From: Pseudomonadota bacterium
GTDB lineage: Bacteria > Pseudomonadota > Gammaproteobacteria > Burkholderiales > JABEVD01
Direction: 5' to 3'
DNA: 64,000 bases
Assembly: GCA_021848825.1 (NCBI GenBank)
Contig: JAJZTQ010000007.1
Coordinates: 1-64,000 of the forward strand
Shown here: positions 27,868 through 45,099 of the stretch, in pieces
How positions within the stretch are numbered: position 1 is the stretch's first letter
Layout of the letters: every line of letters begins with the position of its first letter
Program-made: the position numbers and the translations under genes
The notes under the pieces: generated by a model
What the model was told of the DNA's origin: nothing
Database searches by the model: none
Seen by the model: the letters and a program-made list of their open reading frames with translations, nothing else

Positions 27868-28457
27868 AGCATCATGACGGACGCGGCCGCGAGCAATGCC
27901 GCGCCATCCCGCATCCTGAAGGAATAAAGGGGAAGCAGGAAACTGGATCTGTCACAGGCCTTGTCGACGAAAGCGACCCTTATCCTTTCCTTCCAGTTCC
28001 CTCCCCCCCCTTCTTCCGCATAGTGCAGGGTGAGAAGCAGCCGGACGGCGATCCTTTCAACATTCATCCAGCGCCTGAAAGGAACAAGAAGCGTATAGAT
28101 GCCGCTCAGCATCTCTTCCCTGCTCGTCGTGGCGTGAAGGAAAGCGAGAAAGGCGATGGTGAGGACGATGCGCCATGCCTGAATTGTGCCGGAAACCAGG
28201 CCTTCCAGGGTCGGTCCGGCATGGAAAACAGGATTTCCCGGGGTCTCGAATGCGTAAATCAGGAAAAGGGACAGGAGTATCCAGCGTATCCTCCTGAGCA
28301 GCCTGAAAAAAAGCCTGTTTCCCTGGCAAAGAAGCATGAACGAGAGAAAAAGCGACAGAAAAAAAAGCATTTCCGCACGTGCAGAAAAAGTCAGAACGGC
28401 GAGCGCAACCCAGAGCAGTATCCTGGTCGCAGGATGCAGGGAAAAAAAATCGGACAT
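27864..28457 (-). CDS. CbiQ/EcfT-like membrane protein
   Basis: A 197-residue membrane protein with about five hydrophobic segments, the last at the extreme C-terminus. The layout and the amphipathic middle region (about residues 100-140, ATTSREEMLSGIYTLLVPFRR) resemble the T component (CbiQ/EcfT) of energy-coupling factor transporters. No EcfA ATPase or S component is nearby, so its role is open. It overlaps fimV by 1 base and truA by 4, so it is part of the operon. Assignment rests on shape and short motifs only. Confidence 0.6.
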   Translation of the reverse strand: MSDFFSLHPATRILLWVALAVLTFSARAEMLFFLSLFLSFMLLCQGNRLFFRLLRRIRWILLSLFLIYAFETPGNPVFHAGPTLEGLVSGTIQAWRIVLTIAFLAFLHATTSREEMLSGIYTLLVPFRRWMNVERIAVRLLLTLHYAEEGGGGNWKERIRVAFVDKACDRSSFLLPLYSFRMRDGAALLAAASVMML

Positions 28458-31123
28458 CAGGATTGGGGGAGGCTCTCGAGCATGGCCCTGGCTACCGACT
28501 TCTGATCAGAATCGCCTTCATTCATCACTTCTTCGAGTATCTCTCTCGCCCCCTCGAAATCGCCCATTTCCTGGTAAACCTTGGCAAGATCGAGCTTGGT
28601 TGCGACTTCGTACCAGTTCGGCTCTTTGGGTTCCGAAATCTCGTTGGGCACGTCGCCCAGGTGAAGATCCACATCCGGCAATTCCTGAATCCTGGGCTTG
28701 CTTTCCGCTTCGACCAGGGAAGGGATTTCGGAAAGATCGAAAGGCGTCTTCGAACCCTTTTCCGAAGCAAGAGGCGCTTCCTCCGCAATCAAGGAGAGAT
28801 CGAAGTCCACAGGCGCTGCTTCCTCGACTTCCTTTACAGGCTCTTCTTCAACCATTGATGCGAGACCGAAGTCCACAGGCGCTGCTTCCTCGGCTTCTTT
28901 TTCAGGGGCTTCTTCAACCATGGAGGAGAGATCGAAGTCGACAGGCGCTGCTTCCTCGGCTTCCTTTTCAGGGGCTTCTTCAACCATTGATGAGAGATCG
29001 AAGTCGACAGGCGCTGCTTCCTCGGCTTCCTTTTCAGGGGCTTCTTCAACCATTGATGAGAGATCGAAGTCGACAGGCGCTGCTTCTTCGGCTTCTTTTT
29101 CAGGCTCTTCTTCAACCATGGCGGAAAGATCGAAGTCGACAGGCGCTGCTTCCTCGGCTTCTTTTTCAGGGGCTTCTTCAACCATGGCGGAAAGATCGAA
29201 GTCGACAGGCGCTGCTTCCTCGGCTTCTTTTTCAGGGGCTTCTTCAACCATGGCGGAAAGATCGAAGTCGACAGGCGCTTCTTCGGCTTCTTTTTCAGGC
29301 TCTTCCTCTGTCATGGCGGAAAGATCGAAGTCTGCAGGCGCTTCTTCGGCTTCTTTTGCAGGTGCTTCTTCAACCATGGCGGAGAGATCGAAGTCCACCG
29401 GCCCTTCTTCTTCGGCCTGCCTCTCCGGCTCTTCAATCGAGGAAAGATCGAAATCGACAGCGGGTTCGATGATCTTTTCTTCTGTCAGCACATCGACATC
29501 GACAGGCATTTCTCCCGCATGATCGATCTGCAGATCGACATTCGGCTGTGAAGGCTCGAAATCGAGGTCGAAGTCGAGGCTTTCCTTTCCGCGAACCTCG
29601 GGCGCAGCTTCCGTCGCCCCGGGCGCGCCGCCATAAAGCGGATTTTCCGGATCTGCAGCAGATCCTATCTCCATCGCCCTATCCCATACTTCATGGGGAG
29701 GGGAGATTGCCTGAAGCCTCCGCGCCTCGAGTTCGAGCTTTTCCTTCTCGCCGCCGGCAGCGTGGATCTTCATCAGCATGAGGAAAGCTTCGAAATTCCC
29801 GGGATTGGTCTTCAGCACTTCCTTCAGAATCTCCTCAGCCTGGGCATAACGGCGATAGGAGATATAGAGTTCCGCTTCTTCCAGCGGATCGGCCTCCTCG
29901 CCCACCGGCTGTTCCTTGAGTTCGACGGCCTTCGCCATCGGCTTCGCGACATCAGCCGGCCTGACAGGCTGAGGCTTTTCCTTCTTCCTCTTTCTGGCGA
30001 TCAGCAATACTATCCCTGCGACCCCCAGCACCACGCCCCCCAATGCCCCCAGCACGACCGGATTGTCGAAGACAGACGCGGATGCAGGCGCCGCAGCACT
30101 CGAACGCGCCCTGGCAAGGGCCTGGTTCTTGATTGCAAGCAGCTTCTTCATTTCCTGTATGTTCTTTTCGAGCATCAGGATGCGTTCGCTTGCCTCGTTC
30201 ATCGTCCTGATCTGCGCAGCCTTCTCCTCCGCCTTCGTGACGGCGGATGAAGCCTCACCCTTGGAAAGCTTGAGCACTTCCTCAGGCGGCTTGGAAACCT
30301 TGTTTTCCTCGACCGATGCCGTGATCTTTCCTGAAACGCTGCGCTTCATCCCGGTTCCGCGCGGCACCGCAACCGATGCAAGCCGCTGACGATAAGCGTT
30401 CCAGTCCGCTGTCTGGACCCTGATGACCTTGTCGGCATGATTCTGGCTGATCGAGTCAATTTCGACTTTCGCAGGAACGCGCAGCACGCGCCCGGTCTCG
30501 AGCAGGTTCATGTTCTTGCCGATGAATGCATCTTCGTTCGCCTGGTAGAGGGCGACCAGCATCTGCTCGAGCGTCACGCCTTCCGGCCTCGTTTCCATGG
30601 CGATCCCGCTCAGCGTGTCGCCGCGCTTGACCGTCCTGTATCCCGCCCTGGGCGAAGGCGATGCTGCAGGCGCAGATGGAGAAACCGCCGGGGCCTTTTC
30701 CTTCAGGGCGACAGGAGGTGAAACGGAGGGGGACTTGGCGAATTCGACCGGATCGAACAGCATTGTGTATTCGCGCTCGATCTGTCCGTTCTGCCAGGAA
30801 AGATCGATCAGGATATCCAGAAAGGGATCGTTGACGATATCGTGCGAGCTGAGAAGAATGTAGCGGCTTCCGTCAGGATGCGTCGCCATCACGGCTTCAA
30901 CATGGGCAAGTATCGGATTGTAGTCGACGCCCGCATGCCTGAAAGCATCGGGGGAAGCGATATGCGCCGTCAGGCTCTCGCCGCTTTCCGAAACGACGGC
31001 GATTTCCGCCCTGAGCGGCTGTCCCAGCGCGGAAATGACCTTCAATTCCCCGAGCCCGGCCGCCCACGAGAAAGCCGGCATGAGCAGGGCAATCAGCAAG
31101 ACTTTAAGCATCGTTCTTATCAT
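28457..31123 (-). CDS. fimV: FimV/HubP family polar or peptidoglycan-linked protein
   Basis: An 888-residue protein of the FimV family. It has a signal peptide (to about residue 21), the FimV N-domain (ELKVISALGQPLRAEIAVVS), a LysM peptidoglycan-binding domain (about 140-200, RTVKRGDTLSGIA), a coiled coil (about 290-345), one membrane segment (about 353-374), TPR units (about 410-470), an acidic repeat region of about 240 residues, and a C-terminal TPR/FimV domain (KVYQEMGDFEGAREILEEV). FimV proteins organise the cell pole and support type IV pilus assembly. The start at 31123 gives a clean signal peptide; an upstream in-frame start at 31171 would spoil it. The asd-fimV-truA order is typical of betaproteobacteria. 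Confidence 0.9.
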   Translation of the reverse strand: MIRTMLKVLLIALLMPAFSWAAGLGELKVISALGQPLRAEIAVVSESGESLTAHIASPDAFRHAGVDYNPILAHVEAVMATHPDGSRYILLSSHDIVNDPFLDILIDLSWQNGQIEREYTMLFDPVEFAKSPSVSPPVALKEKAPAVSPSAPAASPSPRAGYRTVKRGDTLSGIAMETRPEGVTLEQMLVALYQANEDAFIGKNMNLLETGRVLRVPAKVEIDSISQNHADKVIRVQTADWNAYRQRLASVAVPRGTGMKRSVSGKITASVEENKVSKPPEEVLKLSKGEASSAVTKAEEKAAQIRTMNEASERILMLEKNIQEMKKLLAIKNQALARARSSAAAPASASVFDNPVVLGALGGVVLGVAGIVLLIARKRKKEKPQPVRPADVAKPMAKAVELKEQPVGEEADPLEEAELYISYRRYAQAEEILKEVLKTNPGNFEAFLMLMKIHAAGGEKEKLELEARRLQAISPPHEVWDRAMEIGSAADPENPLYGGAPGATEAAPEVRGKESLDFDLDFEPSQPNVDLQIDHAGEMPVDVDVLTEEKIIEPAVDFDLSSIEEPERQAEEEGPVDFDLSAMVEEAPAKEAEEAPADFDLSAMTEEEPEKEAEEAPVDFDLSAMVEEAPEKEAEEAAPVDFDLSAMVEEAPEKEAEEAAPVDFDLSAMVEEEPEKEAEEAAPVDFDLSSMVEEAPEKEAEEAAPVDFDLSSMVEEAPEKEAEEAAPVDFDLSSMVEEAPEKEAEEAAPVDFGLASMVEEEPVKEVEEAAPVDFDLSLIAEEAPLASEKGSKTPFDLSEIPSLVEAESKPRIQELPDVDLHLGDVPNEISEPKEPNWYEVATKLDLAKVYQEMGDFEGAREILEEVMNEGDSDQKSVARAMLESLPQS
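28738..29460 (-). repeat. Eleven tandem 66-bp coding repeats in fimV
   Basis: About eleven units of roughly 22 codons encode variants of VDFDLSAMVEEAPEKEAEEAAP. Units in the middle are nearly identical at DNA level, while those at the ends have drifted, which is the pattern of recent expansion by slippage or unequal recombination. The product segment is strongly acidic. Copy number is likely to vary between strains. Confidence 0.9.
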
Positions 31124-31186
31124 GAACTGGGCTTCGCCTGAAATATGATTATCGGCCGAGGATACTCGCAACGCTCCAATTATCTC

Positions 31187-35345: not shown

Positions 35346-35440
35346 GCCTTCAATTATTGCATAATTGGCGTTTTACCGACAGGGGCGCGCTTTTCCTCAT
35401 CCTGAATCGGGACTACAATCCGATTTTGGCTCAACATTCG

Positions 35441-36034
35441 ATGATGCGCATACCGGCTTTTTTCATGATCCTGCTCGCCCTCCTCTCGGGATGCGGCGAG
35501 AAGAAGCAGGATCTCTACAAGGTTTTCCCCCACGATCTCTCAGGCGTGAGCTACGGCAAGGACTTCCACCTCACCGATTTCAACGGAAAACCGAGGCAGC
35601 TGTCGGACTTCAGGGGAAAGGTCGTCGTGCTCTTTTTCGGCTATACCCATTGCCCTGACGTCTGCCCGACCACGCTTTCCGATCTTGCCATCGCGATGAA
35701 GAAACTGGGAAAGGAAGCAGACAAGGTCCAGGTGCTGTTCGTCACTGTCGACCCTGAAAGAGACACGCCGGAGATCCTTAAAAAATATGTCCCTTTCTTC
35801 AATCCGACATTCCTCGGCCTTTACGGAAATGCGGTAGAGACGAAGCGGACTGCCGATGAATTCCATGTCTTCTATCAGAAAGTGCAGATCGAGGATGACT
35901 GGAAGAATTACGCCATGGACCATACTGCGGGATGCTTCGTCTTCGACAGACAAGGCCGTCTCAGGACCTACATGAAATACGGGGAAAAACCTGATGACAT
36001 GGTCAAGGACATAGGAAAGCTGCTCAACTCCTGA
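35441..36034 (+). CDS. SCO1/SenC family copper/redox lipoprotein
   Basis: A 197-residue exported thioredoxin-fold protein. The lipobox LLSGC (about residues 16-20) marks a lipid-anchored periplasmic protein. The copper site is complete: CPDVC in GYTHCPDVCPT, and a histidine in MDHTAGCFVF. Sco proteins deliver copper to the CuA site of cytochrome c oxidase or handle thiols. The start at 35441 gives a proper signal; a longer in-frame start at 35357 would put 28 residues before it. Its last 11 bases overlap the convergent hyfI-like gene. Confidence 0.9.
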   Translation: MMRIPAFFMILLALLSGCGEKKQDLYKVFPHDLSGVSYGKDFHLTDFNGKPRQLSDFRGKVVVLFFGYTHCPDVCPTTLSDLAIAMKKLGKEADKVQVLFVTVDPERDTPEILKKYVPFFNPTFLGLYGNAVETKRTADEFHVFYQKVQIEDDWKNYAMDHTAGCFVFDRQGRLRTYMKYGEKPDDMVKDIGKLLNS

Positions 36035-36515
36035 TCGCAGAGAGGATGCCCTTCAATATCGCTTCGGGTTCGGGCGGGCATCCGGGAATCTCGACATCAA
36101 CCGGAATCACGCTCGATATTCCTCCGCAGCAGGCATAATTGCGCCTGCTGCAGTATATTCCGCCGTTCCTGCCGCAATCGCCCACCGCCACGACCAGCCT
36201 GGGTTCGGACATGGCATCATATGTTGCCTTCAGAGCCGCTTCCATGTGCCTGGAAACGGGGCCCGTGACGAGCAGCATGTCGGCATGCCTGGGACTTGCG
36301 ACGAACTGGATGCCCGAGCCTTCCAGAAGGTAATAGGGATTGTTGAGCGCATGGATCTCCAGCTCGCAGCCATTGCAGGAACCCGCATCGACATGCCTGA
36401 TGGCGAGCGATTTCTCGAGCATTTCCATCCCGCCCACCTTGAGCGATGGATCGCAAGCAGGCGCAGGCTCCGTCTTGATGCCGTATTTCAGTATTTCCCT
36501 GATGATCCTGTACAT
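36024..36515 (-). CDS. Hydrogenase-4-like small subunit (HyfI/NuoB-like)
   Basis: A 163-residue iron-sulfur protein of the HyfI/HycG/NuoB family, which carries the [4Fe-4S] cluster nearest the quinone- or catalytic-like site. All four ligands are visible: Cys47 and Cys50 in GSCNGCELE, Cys114 in GDCGRNGG, Cys146 in GCPP. Extra cysteines 122, 129 and 130 lie between. It is the last gene of the six-gene operon and starts one base after the large subunit gene. So the electron-transfer cluster is kept although the partner subunit lacks Ni-Fe ligands. Confidence 0.88.
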   Translation of the reverse strand: MYRIIREILKYGIKTEPAPACDPSLKVGGMEMLEKSLAIRHVDAGSCNGCELEIHALNNPYYLLEGSGIQFVASPRHADMLLVTGPVSRHMEAALKATYDAMSEPRLVVAVGDCGRNGGIYCSRRNYACCGGISSVIPVDVEIPGCPPEPEAILKGILSAIRS

Positions 36516-38000
36516 TTATAGATCGTGCCCGCTGTAGCTCAGATTGAATGACTTGTTGATCAATGGAAAGTCGGGAACGATGTTCCCCGTCACGGCGAAT
36601 TCGAGCACGGGCCAGTTCTGCCATGAAGGATCATGGGGATGCGCCCGCCTGATCACGCCATTTTCGATCTCCAGCGCCAGCAGCACCTCGCCCCTGAAAC
36701 CTTCCACCCATCCTGCGCCGAATCCGCTGCAGGCAGGAAGATTTTGCATGATCTCCCCTTCCGGCAGCCTCTCTATCATCATCCTGATCAGTCTGAGGCT
36801 TTCGAATATCTCGTCGAACCGGACTGAAACCCTTGCCGCGACATCCCCGCCGTAGTGGGTCGCCATGGAAACATCCAGCATATCGTATGGAAAATAGGCA
36901 TGATCGACCCTGATGTCTGCCGCATTCCTGCTCGCACGCCCCGCAAGCCCTGTCAGCCCCAGTGCTGCGGCAAGGGCCGGCTCCACCTTCCCTGTCGTCA
37001 GGAACCTGTCCTGAAGGCCCGTATGATCCATGTAGATCTCGCGCAGATCCCTGACCTTCGACTCGATGATGTTCGTCTCCTCGATCATTTTCCCGCCCTC
37101 TTCGAAGTCCCCCGACATGCCTCCGGGCACGACCAGATCCATCATCAGGCGATGGCCGAAAACCGATTTGTTGATTCTCAGCATGTCTTCCCGGATGACT
37201 GAAAACTGCGCAAGGCCGAATGAAAAGCCAGCATCGTTGCCCAGCGCCCCCAGATCCGCAAGGTGGTTCGCCACCCGCTCGCGTTCGAGCGCTATTCCCC
37301 TCAGCAGTCCGGCCCTGGAAGAAACCGTGATGCCGCAGGCTGCCTCGACCGCCATGGCATAGGCCCAGGAATAGGCGACCGTGCTGTCCCCGCTTATCCT
37401 CGCGGCAAGCCTCGCCCCTTCAGGAATCGTCATGCCTTCGAACGCCTTTTCTATTCCCTTGTGCTTGTAGCCCAGCCTTTCCTCCAGCCTCAGGAGCTTT
37501 TCCCCGACGACCTGGAACCTGAAATGTCCGGGCTCTATGATGCCTGCATGAACGGGACCCACTGCGATCTCGTGAACCCCTTCGCCTTCCACCCTGACGA
37601 AAGGATAGTCTTCGGAAGAAGGCGTCGCCCCCTGCAATCCCCCCTTTCTCAAGGGGAATTTCCAGAAGCCGTGGCATAGCCATGGCCGCTTGTCCCGCCC
37701 CTGATGGTCGATGCCGTGCATGTCGAAGATGGAACGCTGCATTCGGGAGGCGCAGGGAAAGATTCCCGAGAGGTCGGGATAGCTCCCTCCCTCCACGCGA
37801 TGCTTCACGATCAGCATGCCTTTCGACAAGACATAGGCTGCATGAACGAATGCCCCTTCTTCGGTTTCGCTTCCCCAGAGAGAGACGAGCCGCCCCCCTT
37901 CATCCCTGCAGCTTTCCGCCCTCTCCAGCCAGTCGCCTTCCGCCTTCCATATCGGCGCGATGCCTCGGATCCTTTCCATGCCTTCGAAATCCATATTCAT
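36516..38000 (-). CDS. Hydrogenase-4-like large subunit lacking Ni-Fe ligands (HyfG/NuoCD-like)
   Basis: A 494-residue protein. Residues about 20-125 form a NuoC-like domain, and about 148-494 a NuoD/hydrogenase large-subunit domain starting VGPVHAGIIEPGHFRF. In real group 4 hydrogenases the two Ni-Fe loops are of the form RVCGICGFAHS and DPCYSC. Here they read RISGDSTVAYS (residues 201-211) and NLSYSGHD (486-493), so the four cysteines are Ser203, Ser206, Ser488 and Gly491. The protein also ends right after the second loop, with no cleavable tail. It cannot be a hydrogenase; it fits the energy-converting hydrogenase-related (Ehr) group. The start ATG overlaps the hyfF-like stop by 4 bases. 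Confidence 0.87.
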   Translation of the reverse strand: MNMDFEGMERIRGIAPIWKAEGDWLERAESCRDEGGRLVSLWGSETEEGAFVHAAYVLSKGMLIVKHRVEGGSYPDLSGIFPCASRMQRSIFDMHGIDHQGRDKRPWLCHGFWKFPLRKGGLQGATPSSEDYPFVRVEGEGVHEIAVGPVHAGIIEPGHFRFQVVGEKLLRLEERLGYKHKGIEKAFEGMTIPEGARLAARISGDSTVAYSWAYAMAVEAACGITVSSRAGLLRGIALERERVANHLADLGALGNDAGFSFGLAQFSVIREDMLRINKSVFGHRLMMDLVVPGGMSGDFEEGGKMIEETNIIESKVRDLREIYMDHTGLQDRFLTTGKVEPALAAALGLTGLAGRASRNAADIRVDHAYFPYDMLDVSMATHYGGDVAARVSVRFDEIFESLRLIRMMIERLPEGEIMQNLPACSGFGAGWVEGFRGEVLLALEIENGVIRRAHPHDPSWQNWPVLEFAVTGNIVPDFPLINKSFNLSYSGHDL

Positions 38001-39436
38001 CCTATCAGCCTTGCCGCATCGTTGTACCATTGAGCGAGATGGCGCGGAATGTAGAGGCCCAGAACGAGCACGATGGCGAGATGAATCATGATGGGAAGGT
38101 AGGCCGGCGCATGGGGAAGCGCCATCCCTTTCGATTCCCCCCATACCATGGACTGCACTCTGCCGAATATGGCGGCGAAAGCAACGCCCAATGCGACGAG
38201 AAGAATGGGGGTCGCCCATGGATGGCTCTGCATGGCATGGGTGAGAATCAGGAATTCGCTCGTGAATACGCCGAAAGGCGGCATGCCGAGTATCGCAAGC
38301 CCGCCCAGCATCAGCCCCCATCCCACTGCGGGCGATTTGATCAACCCCGTGATCTTGTCCATCGATTTCGTCCCCGAATGCTGCGCTGCATGCCCTACAG
38401 CGAAGAAGATCGCGGACTTGGTCAGGGAATGGACGGTCATGTGCAGCAGCCCTGCGAAATTCGCCCCTATTCCGAATGCAAAAGTCATGAGGCCCATGTG
38501 TTCGATGGAGGAATAGCCGAAAAGGCGCTTGATGTCCTTCTGCTTCCAGAGCAGAAAGGCAGCGGTCAACACGGAGAGCAGCCCAAAGGCGATCATCAGA
38601 TTGTCTGCGAAGCGGGTTTCGAGCGCCCCCGAGACCAGGATCTTGCCTCTCACGACGGCATAGAGCGCAACGTTGAGCAGGAGCCCCGAGAGCACCGCCG
38701 AAACCGGGGTCGGGCCTTCCGCATGGGCGTCAGGCAGCCAGCTGTGCAGCGGCACGAGCCCGACCTTGGTGCCGTATCCGACCAGCAGGAAAACGAAGGC
38801 GATGGAAAGAACGGTCGGCTCGAGACTGCCTTTCGCAGCATTGAGGTGAGTCCAGAGGAGCGCAGTTCCCCCCGCTCCCAGGACCTTTTCGGCTGCGAAA
38901 TAGATCAGGATCGTGCCGAATAGCGCCTGCGCGATCCCGACCCCGCAGAGGATGAAATACTTCCACGCCGCTTCGAGGCTTTCTCTCGTTCGGTAAAGAC
39001 TGACCAGAAGAACCGTGGCAAGGGTTGCCCCTTCCATCGCGACCCAGAGGATGCCGAGATTGTTGGTGGTGAGGGCGAGCAGCATGGTGAAGCAGAAAAT
39101 CTGGTACATGCTGTGATAGAGCCTCAACTGGTAGTTCGTCAGCCCGCTCAGAACCTGCTCGTTCCTCATGTAGGGTCTCGAGAAGATCGTCGTGGTGAAG
39201 GCGACGAACGCGGTCAGCACGACCAGGAAGACGTTGAATGAGTCGATGAAGAACTGCTCGTGAAAAACGATCATGGGGCCGTGGAGCAGCACTCTCAACG
39301 CCAGCAGGATGGCCGAAACCAGCGTCAGCAGGCTCGCAGCCGAATTGAATTCGGGCGCCCAGCGCCGGTTCCCCCATTTTGCGAGGAATGCGCCTCCAAG
39401 AAGCGGGAAACCCAGTACGGCCAGCATCTCCATCAT
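37997..39436 (-). CDS. Hydrogenase-4-like antiporter subunit (HyfF/NuoN-like)
   Basis: A 479-residue membrane protein of the Mrp-antiporter/NuoLMN family, with about 13-14 spans. The proton-path signature GYGTKVGLVPLHSWLPDAHA (about residues 223-242) is intact, including its lysine, and so is a glutamate in LWVAMEGATLATVL. This subunit should couple electron transfer to proton or sodium movement. It overlaps both neighbours by 4 bases. Confidence 0.9.
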   Translation of the reverse strand: MMEMLAVLGFPLLGGAFLAKWGNRRWAPEFNSAASLLTLVSAILLALRVLLHGPMIVFHEQFFIDSFNVFLVVLTAFVAFTTTIFSRPYMRNEQVLSGLTNYQLRLYHSMYQIFCFTMLLALTTNNLGILWVAMEGATLATVLLVSLYRTRESLEAAWKYFILCGVGIAQALFGTILIYFAAEKVLGAGGTALLWTHLNAAKGSLEPTVLSIAFVFLLVGYGTKVGLVPLHSWLPDAHAEGPTPVSAVLSGLLLNVALYAVVRGKILVSGALETRFADNLMIAFGLLSVLTAAFLLWKQKDIKRLFGYSSIEHMGLMTFAFGIGANFAGLLHMTVHSLTKSAIFFAVGHAAQHSGTKSMDKITGLIKSPAVGWGLMLGGLAILGMPPFGVFTSEFLILTHAMQSHPWATPILLVALGVAFAAIFGRVQSMVWGESKGMALPHAPAYLPIMIHLAIVLVLGLYIPRHLAQWYNDAARLIG

Positions 39437-40080
39437 TCCTCTTTCTTCTCCAGATGCTTGAGATCCAGGCTTTCGAATTTTTCCCTGATCTGGAAAAAGA
39501 AAACGCCGAGGATCAGCACGCCGACCAGCACGTCGAGCGCAACGCCGAGTTCGACAACCATGGGCATGCCGTAAGTGGTGCTGGTGGCCGCGAAGAAAAG
39601 CCCGTTTTCCATGGAAAGAAAGCCTATCACCTGGGAGATCGCCTTGCTTCGCGTGATCATCATCAGCAGCGACAGCAGCACGCAGGCCATGGCGATGCCT
39701 ATGGTGCCCCGGGTGATGGTCCCGGCAAGATGGGAAATGGGCAGCGCAAGATTGAAGGAGACGATCACGATGGCGATGCCTGCCAGCATGGTCGAAGGGA
39801 TGTTGATCAGCGTCTCGACATCCCATTCGACGTTGAGCTGCCTGATCATCCTGAAAAGGATCCACGGCAGGATCACCACCTTCAGGGAAAGCGTGAGCAA
39901 TGCCGAATAATAGAGGTGAGCCTGTCCCGTGGTCGATGCGATCACGATGGTATTGGTGAAAAGGGTCAGGCCCTGGATCATGAAGAGGCTGACGAGCAGC
40001 TTGATCCGCCTCTGTGAAAGCATGGCGAAAGCGAGAAGAAGGAGGATGGATGCGAGCAGGTTGATGAATTGTCCGGCCAT
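39433..40080 (-). CDS. Hydrogenase-4-like membrane subunit HyfE
   Basis: A 215-residue membrane protein with about seven hydrophobic segments, matching HyfE, a NuoK/MrpC-related subunit. The N-terminal half (LLASILLLLAFAMLSQRRIK) and the segment QVIGFLSMENGLFFAA (about residues 155-170) are typical. The tail is charged (ESLDLKHLEKKEE). It starts 1 base after hyfC and overlaps hyfF by 4. Confidence 0.85.
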   Translation of the reverse strand: MAGQFINLLASILLLLAFAMLSQRRIKLLVSLFMIQGLTLFTNTIVIASTTGQAHLYYSALLTLSLKVVILPWILFRMIRQLNVEWDVETLINIPSTMLAGIAIVIVSFNLALPISHLAGTITRGTIGIAMACVLLSLLMMITRSKAISQVIGFLSMENGLFFAATSTTYGMPMVVELGVALDVLVGVLILGVFFFQIREKFESLDLKHLEKKEE

Positions 40081-40081
40081 G

Positions 40082-41029
40082 TCAGGCTCCCAGCAGGAAA
40101 TGGACGAGCATGCCCAGCACGCCGAAGAGGAAGGCCGTTCCCATGAACTCGGGCGCCCTGAAGATGCGCTGCTTGGCCAGGACGGTCTCGATCAGCGCAA
40201 GTCCGAATCCCGCAACAAGAAGCTTCAGGATCAGGATCGGCAGGGCGAAGGCCATGCCTGCCCAGTCGGCGCTCTGGGCGATGCCCCATGGAGCGAAAAG
40301 CGCGATGCCTATGGTCACATAGGCGAAAAGCTTGATCGAACTCGCCCATTCGATCAGCGCCAGGTGTCTGGCCGAATATTCCAGTATCATCGCCTCGTGG
40401 ATCATGGTGAGCTCGAGATGGCTTGCCGGATTGTCGACAGGAATCCGGGCATTTTCAGCGAGAAGCACCATCAGGAAGGCGATTCCCGCGAAAGCCATGC
40501 TCGGATAGATCTCGACATGCCTGTGGGCGAGGGTCTCGACGATCACCGTGAGCGAAGTCGACTGGCTGATCAATGACGCCGTGAAGAGCACCATCAGCAG
40601 CGCCGGTTCGGCCAGGAAGCCGACCAGCATTTCCCGGCGCGCGCCCATGCCGCCGAAAGCCGTGCCGATATCCATGGCGGCGAGCGAAATGGCAATTCGG
40701 GCCAGCGCGAATATGCCTGCAAGCGCGATGGCGTCAGCCGCCTTCGAAAAGCTGAGGTCTGTCGCAAGTGAAGGAACGATCGACGCGGCAAGGCACATCG
40801 ATCCGAAAAGGACGTAGGGCACCCCCCTGAAAAGAGGAGAGGCATTTTTCGCGATTACTGCATCCTTCTTGAAAAGCTTGCCCAGCTTCCTATAGGGCTG
40901 ATCGATGCCTGCCCCCTTCCTGTTCTGCAGCCATGACCTGCACTGGTTCACCCAGCCCATCAGCAGAGGCGCGATCAGAACAGTCAGGAAAAGCTGCATC
41001 AACTGTGTGAAAAGGCCGAAAGCGCTCAT
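40082..41029 (-). CDS. Hydrogenase-4-like membrane subunit (HyfC/NuoH-like)
   Basis: A 315-residue, eight-span protein of the NuoH/HyfC family, which links the iron-sulfur arm to the membrane arm. The acidic loop AENARIPVDNPASHLELTMI (about residues 200-219) and GMGARREMLVGFLAEPAL are hallmarks. The start ATG at 41027-41029 overlaps the hyfB stop. All expected carboxylates of the loop are present, so ion coupling seems possible. Confidence 0.88.
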   Translation of the reverse strand: MSAFGLFTQLMQLFLTVLIAPLLMGWVNQCRSWLQNRKGAGIDQPYRKLGKLFKKDAVIAKNASPLFRGVPYVLFGSMCLAASIVPSLATDLSFSKAADAIALAGIFALARIAISLAAMDIGTAFGGMGARREMLVGFLAEPALLMVLFTASLISQSTSLTVIVETLAHRHVEIYPSMAFAGIAFLMVLLAENARIPVDNPASHLELTMIHEAMILEYSARHLALIEWASSIKLFAYVTIGIALFAPWGIAQSADWAGMAFALPILILKLLVAGFGLALIETVLAKQRIFRAPEFMGTAFLFGVLGMLVHFLLGA

Positions 41030-42999
41030 TGGACGATGAGAAGCAGTATGATCAGGGTGACGAAGTTGTACATCAGGTAAACCAGTATCCTTCCCTGCTG
41101 TATCTTCCCGAAAAAATCGGCAAGCCTTTCGGCAATCCCGGCAAAAGGAAGATAGAGCCATAACCAGATCCTGTCTTCGCTCTTCGCGCTGTATTTCGGC
41201 GCCGTGTCGAATGGAGAAGGCAGCTCCCGCCCTATCCTGAAGAAAGGATCGAATATCTGCCTGATCGGCTGCCCGAACCCTTCTGAAGTATCCTGCATGC
41301 GCGCGTTCCATACAGGATAGCCGCAATTCCATGGCATTGCCCGCCTCACCCGCCCATGATAGAAGCGCCTGACCAGAAGGAAAACGAGTACTGTCGCGAA
41401 GAGCGTCACGATCATGAAGAGAATCGGGCTGTAGCTCGCCCGTTCGGACGAAATCGGCGCGAGAAACAGCCAGTCGGCTGACGGGAGTCTCGAGCCCAGA
41501 AGAAAATCGGTCACGCCGGCGAGATGATCGATCACGAAGAAAGGAAAAAGCCCGAGAAGAATGCAGCCGGAAGAAAGCCACAGCAGCCCTGCCCGCTCCC
41601 ATCCGCCTGCGCTCTTCGCTTCCCGCAGCTTCTCCTCCCTCGGCTGCCCGAGAAAGACGATCCCGTAGAACTTGACCATCACGTAGCCTGCCGCGGCGCC
41701 TGTCAGGACAAGCGCTGCGGCCGCAACCGGAATCATCATGTTGAGATAGGAATGGGGCAATCCGGGCGTGAAAAGAAAAGCCTGGAGAAGCAGCCATTCG
41801 GAGACGAAGCCGTTCAGCGGAGGAAGTCCTGCTATGGCGAGCGAACCGATGAGCGCAGTCCAGGCGACCCATGGCATGTTGTGGATCAATCCGCCCAGTT
41901 TGCCGAGATTCCGCTCGCCTGTCGCGTGCAGCACGGAACCCGTGCAGAGGAAAAGCAGGCTCTTGAAGAAGGCATGATTGAGGCAATGGTAAAGGGTTGC
42001 GACGAGGGCGAGCGCCGCCAGCGAATTCATGGCATAAGCCCTGAATATTGCCGAAAGGCCAAGACCTACGAAAACGATGCCGATGTTCTCGACCGATGAA
42101 TAGGCGAGCAGGCGCTTCATGTCGCTCTGGACGGCGCTGAAAACGGCGCCGAAAAGCGCGGTCAGGAGGCCGATTGCGAGGATCAGCACGCCCCACCACC
42201 ATAGCTGCAGGTGGAGCAGATCGAAAAGCACGCGGATGAGACCGTAGACGGCGGTCTTCAGCATCACCCCGCTCATCATCGCGGATACCGGTGAAGGTGC
42301 TGCAGGATGGGCCTCGGGGAGCCAGACATGGAGCGGCAGCATGCCGGCCTTTGCGCCGAAGCCAAAAAGGGCGAGCAGGAAGGCGAAAGTCGCCTGCATG
42401 CCTGAAAGATGAGTCCCCCTCATCGCATCGAAGCTGTAATTTCCTCCCATCGATCCAAAGAAGAGCAGAAGACTGATCGCGCCGAGATGCGCCATCAGCA
42501 GATAGATGAACCCGGCTCGCCTGATCTCGGCAATCCTGTGGTCGGTCGTCACCAGGAAATAGGACGAAAGCGCCATGGCTTCCCATGAAACCATGAAAAG
42601 GAAAGCGTCGTCGGCGAGGATCACGAAGGTCATCGCGGCGAGGAAGACATGGTATTCCAGGCAAATCGTGCCGATATGTTCCTTCTCGTTCCTGAAGTAA
42701 CCTGCAGAATAGGAAGAAATGCCGAAAACCGCGAGGCCCAGAATCATCAGGAAAAAAGCGGACAGGGCATCGAGCCTGAAATGGAAGGGAAGATCGGGAA
42801 GTCCCAGCAGGGAGATTTCGGTTTCGATGCCTGTCGAGAAATAGGCTGAAGCTGCAACAACCAGTCCGGCAGCCGCGCCCAGCGGGAAGACGATGCTTCT
42901 CACGAATCCGACATGCTTTCCTGCCGCAAGGCCGACCAGTCCGAGCACGATCCAGAGGACCGCTGCCAGGATGATCAGTTCTATCGGCTGGACGTTCAT
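41026..42999 (-). CDS. Hydrogenase-4-like antiporter subunit (HyfB/NuoL-like)
   Basis: A 657-residue membrane protein and the first gene of the Hyf-like operon. It has about 16 spans and the antiporter signature GFGAKAGMLPLHVWLPEAHP (about residues 213-232), with a further WEAMALSSYF motif near 137. A long C-terminal part (about 500-657) includes a soluble loop and a last helix, in the style of HyfB. It begins 18 bases after the metG stop, so metG and the complex may share a transcript. Confidence 0.9.
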   Translation of the reverse strand: MNVQPIELIILAAVLWIVLGLVGLAAGKHVGFVRSIVFPLGAAAGLVVAASAYFSTGIETEISLLGLPDLPFHFRLDALSAFFLMILGLAVFGISSYSAGYFRNEKEHIGTICLEYHVFLAAMTFVILADDAFLFMVSWEAMALSSYFLVTTDHRIAEIRRAGFIYLLMAHLGAISLLLFFGSMGGNYSFDAMRGTHLSGMQATFAFLLALFGFGAKAGMLPLHVWLPEAHPAAPSPVSAMMSGVMLKTAVYGLIRVLFDLLHLQLWWWGVLILAIGLLTALFGAVFSAVQSDMKRLLAYSSVENIGIVFVGLGLSAIFRAYAMNSLAALALVATLYHCLNHAFFKSLLFLCTGSVLHATGERNLGKLGGLIHNMPWVAWTALIGSLAIAGLPPLNGFVSEWLLLQAFLFTPGLPHSYLNMMIPVAAAALVLTGAAAGYVMVKFYGIVFLGQPREEKLREAKSAGGWERAGLLWLSSGCILLGLFPFFVIDHLAGVTDFLLGSRLPSADWLFLAPISSERASYSPILFMIVTLFATVLVFLLVRRFYHGRVRRAMPWNCGYPVWNARMQDTSEGFGQPIRQIFDPFFRIGRELPSPFDTAPKYSAKSEDRIWLWLYLPFAGIAERLADFFGKIQQGRILVYLMYNFVTLIILLLIVQ

Positions 43000-43017: not shown

Positions 43018-45099
43018 TCATTTCACCCTCATTCCCGGAACCGCTCCCTGATCCGGGCTCAGGATGAAAAGCCCGGCCTCCCCCCCGGCCGCGAGCACCA
43101 TGCCTTCCGACATGCCGAACTTCATCTTTCTGGGTGCGAGATTCGCGACCATCACCGTCAGCCTGCCTTCGAGGGATTCAGGGGAATAGGCGGACTTGAT
43201 TCCTGCAAACACGGTGCGTTTTTCGGAACCGATGTCGAGCGTGAGCTTCAGCAGCTTTTCCGCCCCTTCGACATGTTCTGCCTTGACGATCCTGGCGACT
43301 CTCAGATCGACCTTGGAGAAGTCGTCTATCGATATCGTCTCGAGCACAGGCTGATGATGAATCTGCGATTCGGCATGGCGCGCAGGCGAATGCCCGACAG
43401 GCTTCAGGCTTTCCCTGTTGGCCTCGACCATGGCCTCTATCGATTTGGCATCGAGCCTCGTCATGAGGTGACTGTATTCGTTGATTCTGTGCCCGGGGGG
43501 CAGAAGATTGCCGAGATCTTCCCACCGAAGCGGATGAACGGACAGGAAATGCTCGACTTTCTCGGCGAGTTCAGGGAGTACGGGTTTGAGGAAAATCGTC
43601 AGTTTCCTGAAGGCATTCAGGAAAACCGTGCAGGCCTCATGCAGCTTCTCATCCTTCCCCGCTTCCTTGGCAAGCTCCCACGGCTTCAGGTCGTTGATGT
43701 ACACGTTGACCACGTCCGCAACAGACATGATTTCCCTGACCGCCTTGGCGTAATTCCTTTCCGAATAGCAGGCTGCAATATAGGTTCCGCGATCGACAGG
43801 TCTTCCTTCCTCGTCGAATGTTTCGGAAAATGCCTTTTCCAGCCAGTTCAGGTTTTCTCTCGAAATCGATGAAGAAAGCATGCCGTCGAAGCGCTTCGCG
43901 ATGAATCCGGCGCAGCGGCTCGCGATGTTGATGTATTTCCCGATCAGGTCCGAGTTCACCTTCAGGACGAAATCCTCGAGATTGAGGTCGATGTCCTCCA
44001 TCGTTCCGTTCAATTTCGATGCGTAGTAGTAGCGCAGGTATTCCGTGTTCTTGACATGCTCCGCGTAGCTTCTCGCGGTGATGAAGGTGCCCCGGGATTT
44101 CGACATCTTTTCCCCGTTCACTGTCAGGAAACCATGTGCGAAAAGCCTGGTGGGCGTCCTGAATCCGGCATGCTCGAGCATGGCAGGCCAGAAGAGCGCA
44201 TGAAAATAGAGGATGTCTTTTCCGATGAAATGATAGAGTTCGGTCTCTGATCCTTTTTTCCAGTATTCCTCGAAATCGATGCCGCGCTCCTTGCAGAGCT
44301 TCATGAAGCTGCCCATGTAGCCTATCGGCGCATCGAGCCAGACATAGAAATACTTCCCCGGCGCATCCGGGATCTCGAAGCCGAAATAGGGCGCATCCCT
44401 GGAAATATCCCAGTCAGAAAGATCGGACCCTAGCCACTCCTGCATCTTGTTCGATGCTTCCTGCTGCAGCGTCCCGCTTCTTGTCCATTCCCGAAGGAAT
44501 GTCCTGCACCGTTCGTCGGAAAGCCTGAAGAAATAATGCTCGGATTCCCTGAGTTCGGGCTTCGCCCCGGATACTGCCGAATAGGGATTCCTGAGATCGG
44601 AAGGGGTATAGGCCGCGCCGCAGACTTCGCAGTTGTCCCCGTACTGGTCCTTTGCCCCGCATTTCGGGCATTCTCCCTTGATGAAGCGGTCCGGCAGAAA
44701 CATCTGTTTCACCGGATCGTAATACTGCTCTATCGTTCTCGCCTCGATCAGCCCCTGCGACTTGAGTTCCAGATAGATGGCGCAGGCAAATTCCCTCGTT
44801 TCCTCGGAATTGGTCGAACCGTAATGGTCGAAATTGACATGGAACGACGAGAAATCCTCGAAATGCTCGAGCCACACCCGGGATATCAGGATTTCCGGGG
44901 AAATGCCTTCCTTTTCGGCGCGAAGCATGATGGGCGTGCCGTGCGTGTCGTCCGCGCAGACGTAGAGGCATTCATGCCCTTGCATTTTCTGGAATCGAAC
45001 CCATATGTCCGTCTGCACATATTCGACGAGATGGCCGAGATGGATGCTGCCGTTGGCATAGGGGAGCGCTGAAGTGACGAGGATCTTCTTTCTTTTCAT
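43018..45099 (-). CDS. metG: Methionyl-tRNA synthetase
   Basis: Charges tRNA-Met. The 693-residue protein has the class I HIGH-type motif HLGH at residues 20-23 and KMSKS near residue 333. The zinc knuckle has two Cys pairs (CPKC and CEVC, about 145-161). A C-terminal tRNA-binding (EMAP/Trbp111-like) domain of about 105 residues is present. It is divergent from apbC, the pair metG-apbC being common in proteobacteria, and stands directly ahead of the Hyf-like operon. Confidence 0.97.

Follow-up and report, generated by a model that had tools for sequence, protein, structure and literature searches.

Organization of the hyf operon

We analyzed a stretch of 64,000 nucleotides (hereafter, the window: positions 1 to 64,000 of the forward strand of contig JAJZTQ010000007.1, assembly GCA_021848825.1) from a Pseudomonadota bacterium of the order Burkholderiales. 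The window contains an operon for a membrane complex related to hydrogenase-4, in which the large subunit lacks all four cysteines that hold the [NiFe] center in hydrogenases. The six adjacent genes, hyfB-C-E-F-G-I, occupy positions 42999-36024 of the minus strand:

hyfB, 41026..42999, minus strand: 657 amino acids (aa), antiporter-like membrane subunit
hyfC, 40082..41029, minus strand: 315 aa, NuoH-like membrane subunit (heel / E-channel)
hyfE, 39433..40080, minus strand: 215 aa, small membrane subunit
hyfF, 37997..39436, minus strand: 479 aa, second antiporter-like membrane subunit
hyfG, 36516..38000, minus strand: 494 aa, NuoC+NuoD-like large subunit without [NiFe] ligands
hyfI, 36024..36515, minus strand: 163 aa, NuoB-like small subunit with one predicted [4Fe-4S] cluster

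The original prediction, made from the sequence of the window, described this set as intact and tightly overlapped, and so it proved: each gene starts with ATG and has one terminal stop codon, and neighbors overlap by 4 bases or are separated by 0-1 base. HyfB and HyfF exceed the cut-offs of the NCBIfam models for hydrogenase 4 subunits B and F (866.6 bits vs 667 and 803.7 bits vs 543, respectively), and both match PF00361, so that the antiporter-like membrane subunits characteristic of hydrogenase-related (Ehr) complexes are present. HyfG combines PF00329 and PF00346 (the 30-kDa and 49-kDa subunits of complex I), HyfI matches PF01058 (the 20-kDa subunit, 4.3e-31), and HyfC matches PF00146 (3.9e-31). 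HyfE, for which there is no Pfam match, is recognized by the NCBIfam model of the hydrogenase 4 membrane subunit (2.7e-24); this match and the best NCBIfam matches of HyfG, HyfC and HyfI all score under the respective cut-offs. In agreement with the prediction, no ferredoxin subunit of the HyfA/HyfH type is encoded in the operon, and the CxxCxxCxxxC motif occurs in none of the open reading frames (ORFs) of at least 40 aa in the window. No nuoE/F/G-like gene that could supply an NADH input module was seen in or beside the operon when the ORFs between 30000 and 48000 were inspected by eye, along with the neighboring genes.

The former metal site of HyfG is rebuilt

A PDB search with a profile built from 17 HyfG rows retrieved HycE (7z0s) as the best match (3.6e-80), followed by Mbh and then by NuoD-type chains. 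The resulting alignment places RVCGIC of HycE over RISGDS of the window protein, and DPCYSC over NLSYSG, upholding the predicted identity of the residues at the four ligand positions (Ser203, Ser206, Ser488 and Gly491). The two stretches are:

hyfG loop 1, 37371..37400, minus strand: RISGDSTVAY, residues 201-210, at the place of the HycE RVCGIC loop
hyfG C-terminal stretch, 36519..36557, minus strand: NKSFNLSYSGHDL, residues 482-494, at the place of the HycE DPCYSC end

We compared 77 HyfG rows, namely, the window protein and those from 76 of the 80 named loci, which are the best 80 among the matches listed (L044, L046, L058 and L076 gave no HyfG row). None of the 77 retains all four cysteines; one cysteine is present in nine rows and more than one in none. 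Position 203 is occupied by Ser (60 rows), Ala (9) or Cys (8); position 206 by Ser (68), Thr (8) or Ala (1); position 488 by Ser (61), Ala (7), Asn (7) or Cys (1), with one gap; and position 491 by Gly (75) or Ala (1), again with one gap. Judged by these alignments, the loss of the [NiFe] ligands is a family trait and not one of the window protein alone. By the same token, the old metal site is rebuilt, not merely lost or decayed, because new, near-invariant residues stand there: Asp205 in 77 of 77 rows and Asn482, Lys483 and Asn486 in 76 of 77 each, with HycE differing at all four positions. His143-Glu144 and Asp249, found in all 77 rows, are also particular to the Cys-less family. The pair of motifs R-x-[SAC]-G-D-[ST] and NKSFN-x-[SAN]-Y-x-G-x-D, present in nearly all rows, separates Cys-less HyfG from hydrogenases. 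The search for other residues that could ligate Ni-Fe yielded no family-wide replacement set of cysteines and left the prediction standing; the candidates for a second metal site, Cys116 and Cys130 of HyfI, are found in only 60 and 49 of the 80 rows, and the window protein has Arg116. An AlphaFold2 model of HyfG (60-row alignment; predicted local distance difference test score, pLDDT, 82.9) again had HycE as the best match in a fold search (TMq 0.82); the fold alignment included 59 of the 74 usable proteins.

The remaining parts of the putative electron and ion path are kept. The four HyfI cysteines to which the prediction assigned the cluster, Cys47, Cys50, Cys114 and Cys146, are conserved in 80, 80, 79 and 78 of the 80 rows, respectively. 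The antiporter signatures that it reported are likewise preserved, with E140, K217, K295, H342, K346 and E401 of HyfB and E135, K224, H336, K340 and E394 of HyfF identical in every row present (73-77 per column). In HyfC, the acidic residues of the ion path are invariant or nearly so, and E141, D199, E206 and E217 are common to E. coli HyfC and NuoH.

Phylogenetic placement and known relatives

We built a tree of 48 rows, of which 47 were chosen from 113 (L105 and L106 having been skipped) and one is the NuoD of the same genome. The 41 Cys-less HyfG rows group in a single clade, with a Shimodaira-Hasegawa-like approximate likelihood ratio test (SH-aLRT) support of 98. This clade stands apart from E. 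coli HycE/HyfG, which form its sister clade, and from a CxxC-bearing row of the order. The original assignment to the Ehr type is supported by the absence of the Ni-Fe cysteines as a set from every row, by the antiporter-like subunits, and by published usage, with which it agrees (PMC6349859, PMC10284858, PMC4378227).

The window complex is a new member of a kind that is already known. In A. ferrooxidans, the same six genes hyfBCEFGI have been described and called non-hydrogenase, the catalytic subunit being classed as such with HydDB, and no Hyf subunit was detected during growth on H2 (PMC7735108); the likeness is drawn from this published description. Also by description, the window complex resembles an Ehr-like system of a distant organism, Sulfobacillus, in which six syntenic genes lie near a large subunit without RxCGxC and DPCxxC, with the function given as unknown (PMC4378227). 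Further Ehr complexes are described from Nitrospira (PMC10284858), Margulisbacteria (PMC6349859) and Geobacter (PMC7894505). The membrane, large and small subunits are homologous to those of E. coli hydrogenase-4 and formate hydrogenlyase (HyfA-J, HycB-G), but the E. coli complexes have HyfA, HyfD, HyfH and the four cysteines, all of which are missing from the window complex. With respiratory complex I (NuoB/CD/H core), it shares the fold, the NuoC-NuoD fusion and the E-channel residues; it differs in belonging to a separate clade and lacking the NADH module, and the genome encodes its own NuoD along with a NuoG-like gene. DAB and NDH-1MS also employ complex I-like antiporter subunits and, as discussed below, a link to CO2 is suspected for the window complex as well, but the hyf operon includes neither DabA nor a Cup-type subunit.

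Host genome and distribution among relatives

At 2.74 Mb, the host genome is spread over 55 contigs; its listed completeness is 99.7%. Apart from HyfG, the only PF00346 protein found in it is NuoD-like, and the only PF00374 protein is HoxH-like (RLCGIC and DPCLSC; contig C19), encoded next to genes that look like those for its own small and diaphorase-type subunits. A second large subunit with CxxC motifs that might pair with the operon was sought in the genome, and this HoxH-like protein, the only candidate, was rejected in view of the small subunit beside it; the prediction thus withstood this check. Its statement that the window carries no hyp maturation gene holds for the window but does not extend to the genome, which has hyp genes (HypD, contig C49); these fit as belonging with the Hox-type hydrogenase on C19, which would account for HypD. 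No formate dehydrogenase was found in the window, as predicted, or among the three PF00384 proteins of the genome, for which sequence and neighbors (not profiles) suggest NuoG, a subunit of alternative complex III and, next to NirBD, a nitrate reductase. Three RuBisCO matches, two DabA matches (both on contig C50, away from the hyf locus) and carboxysome-like genes seen by eye indicate that the organism is a carbon fixer. Unlike in a DAB-type pump, no DabA (PF10070) is encoded beside the antiporter subunit at the hyf locus.

A HyfG ortholog is present in all nine genomes of the genus that were searched, the host included, being split over two contigs in one of them (G005). At E 1e-60, Cys-less Hyf complexes are common, with HyfG detected in 57 of 200 genomes of the order and 58 of 299 of the phylum. 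Carriers among the matches listed include Gallionella, Thiobacillus, Rhodoferax, Paraburkholderia, Rhodanobacter, Leptospirillum and Acidobacteriaceae, and plasmid-borne hyf genes occur in Rhizobium, Azospirillum and Cupriavidus; Cupriavidus metallidurans and Thiobacillus denitrificans are among the species with the complex. Among the 57 Hyf-positive genomes of the order, 25 have no HypD match (17 of 48 once genomes under 90% completeness or over 5% contamination are dropped); overall, HypD was found in 32 of 57 Hyf-positive vs 31 of 143 Hyf-negative genomes. RuBisCO is also more frequent in carriers (38/57 vs 36/143, or 42/57 vs 45/143 if 13 genomes with weak PF00016 matches, set aside as RuBisCO-like, are counted), whereas DabA shows no association with Hyf (11/57 vs 29/143). 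The excess of RuBisCO and HypD may reflect only a lithotrophic lifestyle, and these counts treat related genomes alike.

Several variants of the locus were observed along the way. A genus-mate (G001; L122, 4956-5789) has a GGDEF-domain gene between hyfG and hyfI, and at the same place G007 (L119, 10602-11433) has a gap of ~830 bases without explanation. G137 contains two hyf-type sets in tandem (L125, 2930-17823), the first of which, directly upstream of the main type, encodes a HyfG that is 44% identical to that of the window and ends in NKSVNGSYSGHDL; its hyfC was not called as a separate ORF. A HyfG homolog with 43% identity is encoded in a genome of only ~0.9 Mb, listed as 100% complete, in the same phylum (G375, contig C21, 12988-14304).

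Gene neighborhoods

Two genes flank the operon in the window:

metG, 43018..45099, minus strand: PF09334, directly upstream of hyfB with an 18-base gap
SCO1/SenC-like gene, 35357..36034, plus strand: PF02630 (1.5e-45), convergent with hyfI

The first, although it also has a match in 12 of the 76 named loci of relatives, is probably a gene neighbor and not part of the complex, and the second is a neighbor only. Elsewhere in the window, positions 28457-31171 encode a FimV-like protein (PF25800) in which an acidic repeat of the pattern PVDFDLSxMVEEAPEKEAEEA recurs about ten times.

In 15 of the 57 Hyf-positive genomes, hyfG has a SulP anion transporter gene no more than 16 kb away (in nine, no more than 8 kb), compared with at most 0.98 expected under random placement (P = 6.5e-15, a value that treats genomes as independent, the 15 coming from six families); in 13 of the 15, a same-strand copy is upstream of hyfG. 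This linkage is a new observation of the present analysis, and no paper connecting SulP with such complexes appeared among those listed in the literature searches, most of which were seen as titles and abstracts. Among the named loci, SulP occurs in nine of 76, and additionally in L058, with three changes on a tree of the 52 loci that extend at least 8 kb before hyfG; the two samples overlap, given that L055 and G166 yield the same SulP protein. The hyf-near SulPs are spread over several SulP subfamilies. On a SulP tree that included 20 "far" regions, picked by hand from those without hyf nearby, 15 changes of the near/far label are required, and starred branches force at least 13 of these; shuffled labels require a mean of 24.3, so the label is also partly inherited. 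A search at E ≤ 1e-15 gave no SulP in any of the six genus members covered, or in 17 of the 57 Hyf-positive genomes overall. A gamma-carbonic-anhydrase-like gene is found in four of the 76 named loci and Cbb genes in three, all from Thiobacillus or Thiomonas, but RuBisCO and beta-carbonic anhydrase are not found near hyf above chance (each within 16 kb in one of the 57 genomes). Of the proteins tested, two SulPs and one gamma-carbonic-anhydrase-like protein, all scored under the BicA and carbonic anhydrase cut-offs.

Other genes also recur next to hyf. A spermidine-synthase-like gene is present in 15 of the 76 named loci, including L043, L051, L056, L059, L063, L065, L068 and L077, with eight changes on the 52-locus tree; this link was set aside, as in the 57-genome sample the gene was seen, by eye, only beside the second hyf copy of G186. 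A gene for a YoaK/DUF1275 membrane protein repeatedly adjoins hyf in Burkholderiales, and does so on one Rhizobium plasmid as well (L034, L051, L056, L059, L066, L069, L071 and L075; also L140, L142 and L149). A divergent Cys-less relative on a Burkholderia cenocepacia plasmid (NZ_CP073707.1; L147, 4509-21293), with the loops RVSGVDS and NEASFGL, sits with genes for DUF190, CrcB, an inorganic diphosphatase and a chloride channel, resembling a fluoride-resistance cluster; CrcB-like genes were also recognized by eye upstream of the divergent relative in L127 (G194) and L128 (G018).

Functional interpretation

With moderate confidence, we interpret the window operon as encoding a functional Ehr-type, membrane-bound, ion-translocating oxidoreductase of the complex I/group 4 hydrogenase superfamily that would neither make nor use H2. 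Because the operon does not encode a ferredoxin subunit, a soluble, low-potential, ferredoxin-like carrier is predicted to dock on HyfI. Electrons would then cross the single [4Fe-4S] cluster of HyfI to a small acceptor, most likely a quinone, bound between HyfI and the rebuilt pocket of HyfG, and the reaction would be coupled, via HyfC, to the movement of H+ or Na+ by HyfB and HyfF. Under a large proton gradient, the complex could run in reverse and yield low-potential reductant; in some sulfur- and iron-oxidizing relatives, the gradient may serve the neighboring SulP anion transporters. The loss of the ligands, the Hyf-positive genomes without HypD, the retained HyfI cysteines and the conserved ion path all favor this interpretation, as do the near-invariant new residues of the pocket, the single clade, the wide distribution and the HycE-like fold.

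Several considerations weigh against this interpretation. The donor, the acceptor and the activity itself are predictions, and docking of a carrier on a complex without a ferredoxin subunit would be unusual. The quinone contacts of Thermus Nqo4, Tyr87 and His38, correspond in the PDB profile alignment to Gly204 and Ile155 of HyfG, so that a quinone acceptor is not proven. Both active-site stretches of the HyfG model (residues 131-181 and 470-494) are of low confidence, and the tree comes from a quick search on chosen rows, with long branches flagged and the outgroup not on one side of a branch.

Alternatively, the complex could be an inorganic carbon uptake machine that works with SulP bicarbonate transporters and carbonic anhydrase, with electron flow or the proton gradient powering the import of HCO3- or the hydration of CO2; NDH-1MS and DAB serve the same end in other ways. 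The SulP enrichment, with its predominantly upstream, same-strand arrangement and its origin from several SulP subfamilies, the gamma-carbonic-anhydrase-like and Cbb genes at a few loci, and the higher frequency of RuBisCO in carriers all suit this possibility, as does A. caldus, in which one hyf copy lies beside a beta-carbonic anhydrase gene (PMC3826726); another A. caldus copy is located close to carbon fixation genes and formate dehydrogenase. We nevertheless consider the carbon uptake role unlikely, given the genus members and other carriers without SulP, the 19 of 57 carriers without RuBisCO, the chance-level proximity of RuBisCO and beta-carbonic anhydrase, the lack of a DabA association, the sub-threshold scores of the proteins tested, the many carriers from genera that are, by name, soil or plant-associated, and the shared descent that the SulP P value ignores. 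A bolder formulation, in which the Cys-less HyfBCEFGI clade supports anion import with redox energy, powering SulP bicarbonate uptake in autotrophs, and the rebuilt Asp/Lys/Asn pocket is a substrate site in its own right, strikes us as rather unlikely; more generally, the complex may take part in bicarbonate uptake. The retention of the HyfI cluster cysteines in 78-80 of 80 rows is hard to reconcile with a device that handles only ions or pH (Mrp-like antiport, or a response to acid or anion stress) and whose redox site idles; with several record titles pointing to acid habitats (an uncounted impression) and a divergent relative in the fluoride-resistance-like cluster on its side, such a device is still doubtful in our view.

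Pairing with a formate dehydrogenase, that is, formate oxidation, has precedents in several reports: it was mentioned by the authors for A. ferrooxidans (PMC7735108), formate dehydrogenase is encoded a few genes upstream of the core hyf copy of A. caldus (PMC3826726), an FDH-Ehr (formate dehydrogenase-Ehr) complex was suggested in Margulisbacteria (PMC6349859), and all Ehr subunits of Geobacter sulfurreducens were abundant on formate (PMC7894505). For the window complex, it appears very unlikely, as the three PF00384 proteins of this nearly complete genome all read as other enzymes. That the complex is still a hydrogenase, either active with unusual ligands or in decay, would be in keeping with HycE as the best relative of HyfG, but is the most improbable explanation of all: no row has the four cysteines, new near-invariant residues occupy the site, the complex occurs in genomes without a HypD match, and the family is one clade under constraint.

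Cys-less Hyf subunits often bear hydrogenase names in databases (one such record was seen here), and these names may underlie claims of H2 evolution; the reading of A. caldus hyfBCEFG as a hydrogenase (PMC3826726) is a candidate case, judged from its published description. If the proposed connection with SulP-dependent bicarbonate uptake were true, these complexes would join NDH-1MS and DAB as a third means of taking up inorganic carbon that derives from complex I. Through the SulP linkage and the rebuilt pocket, the long-standing question of what these complexes use as substrate becomes accessible to testing.

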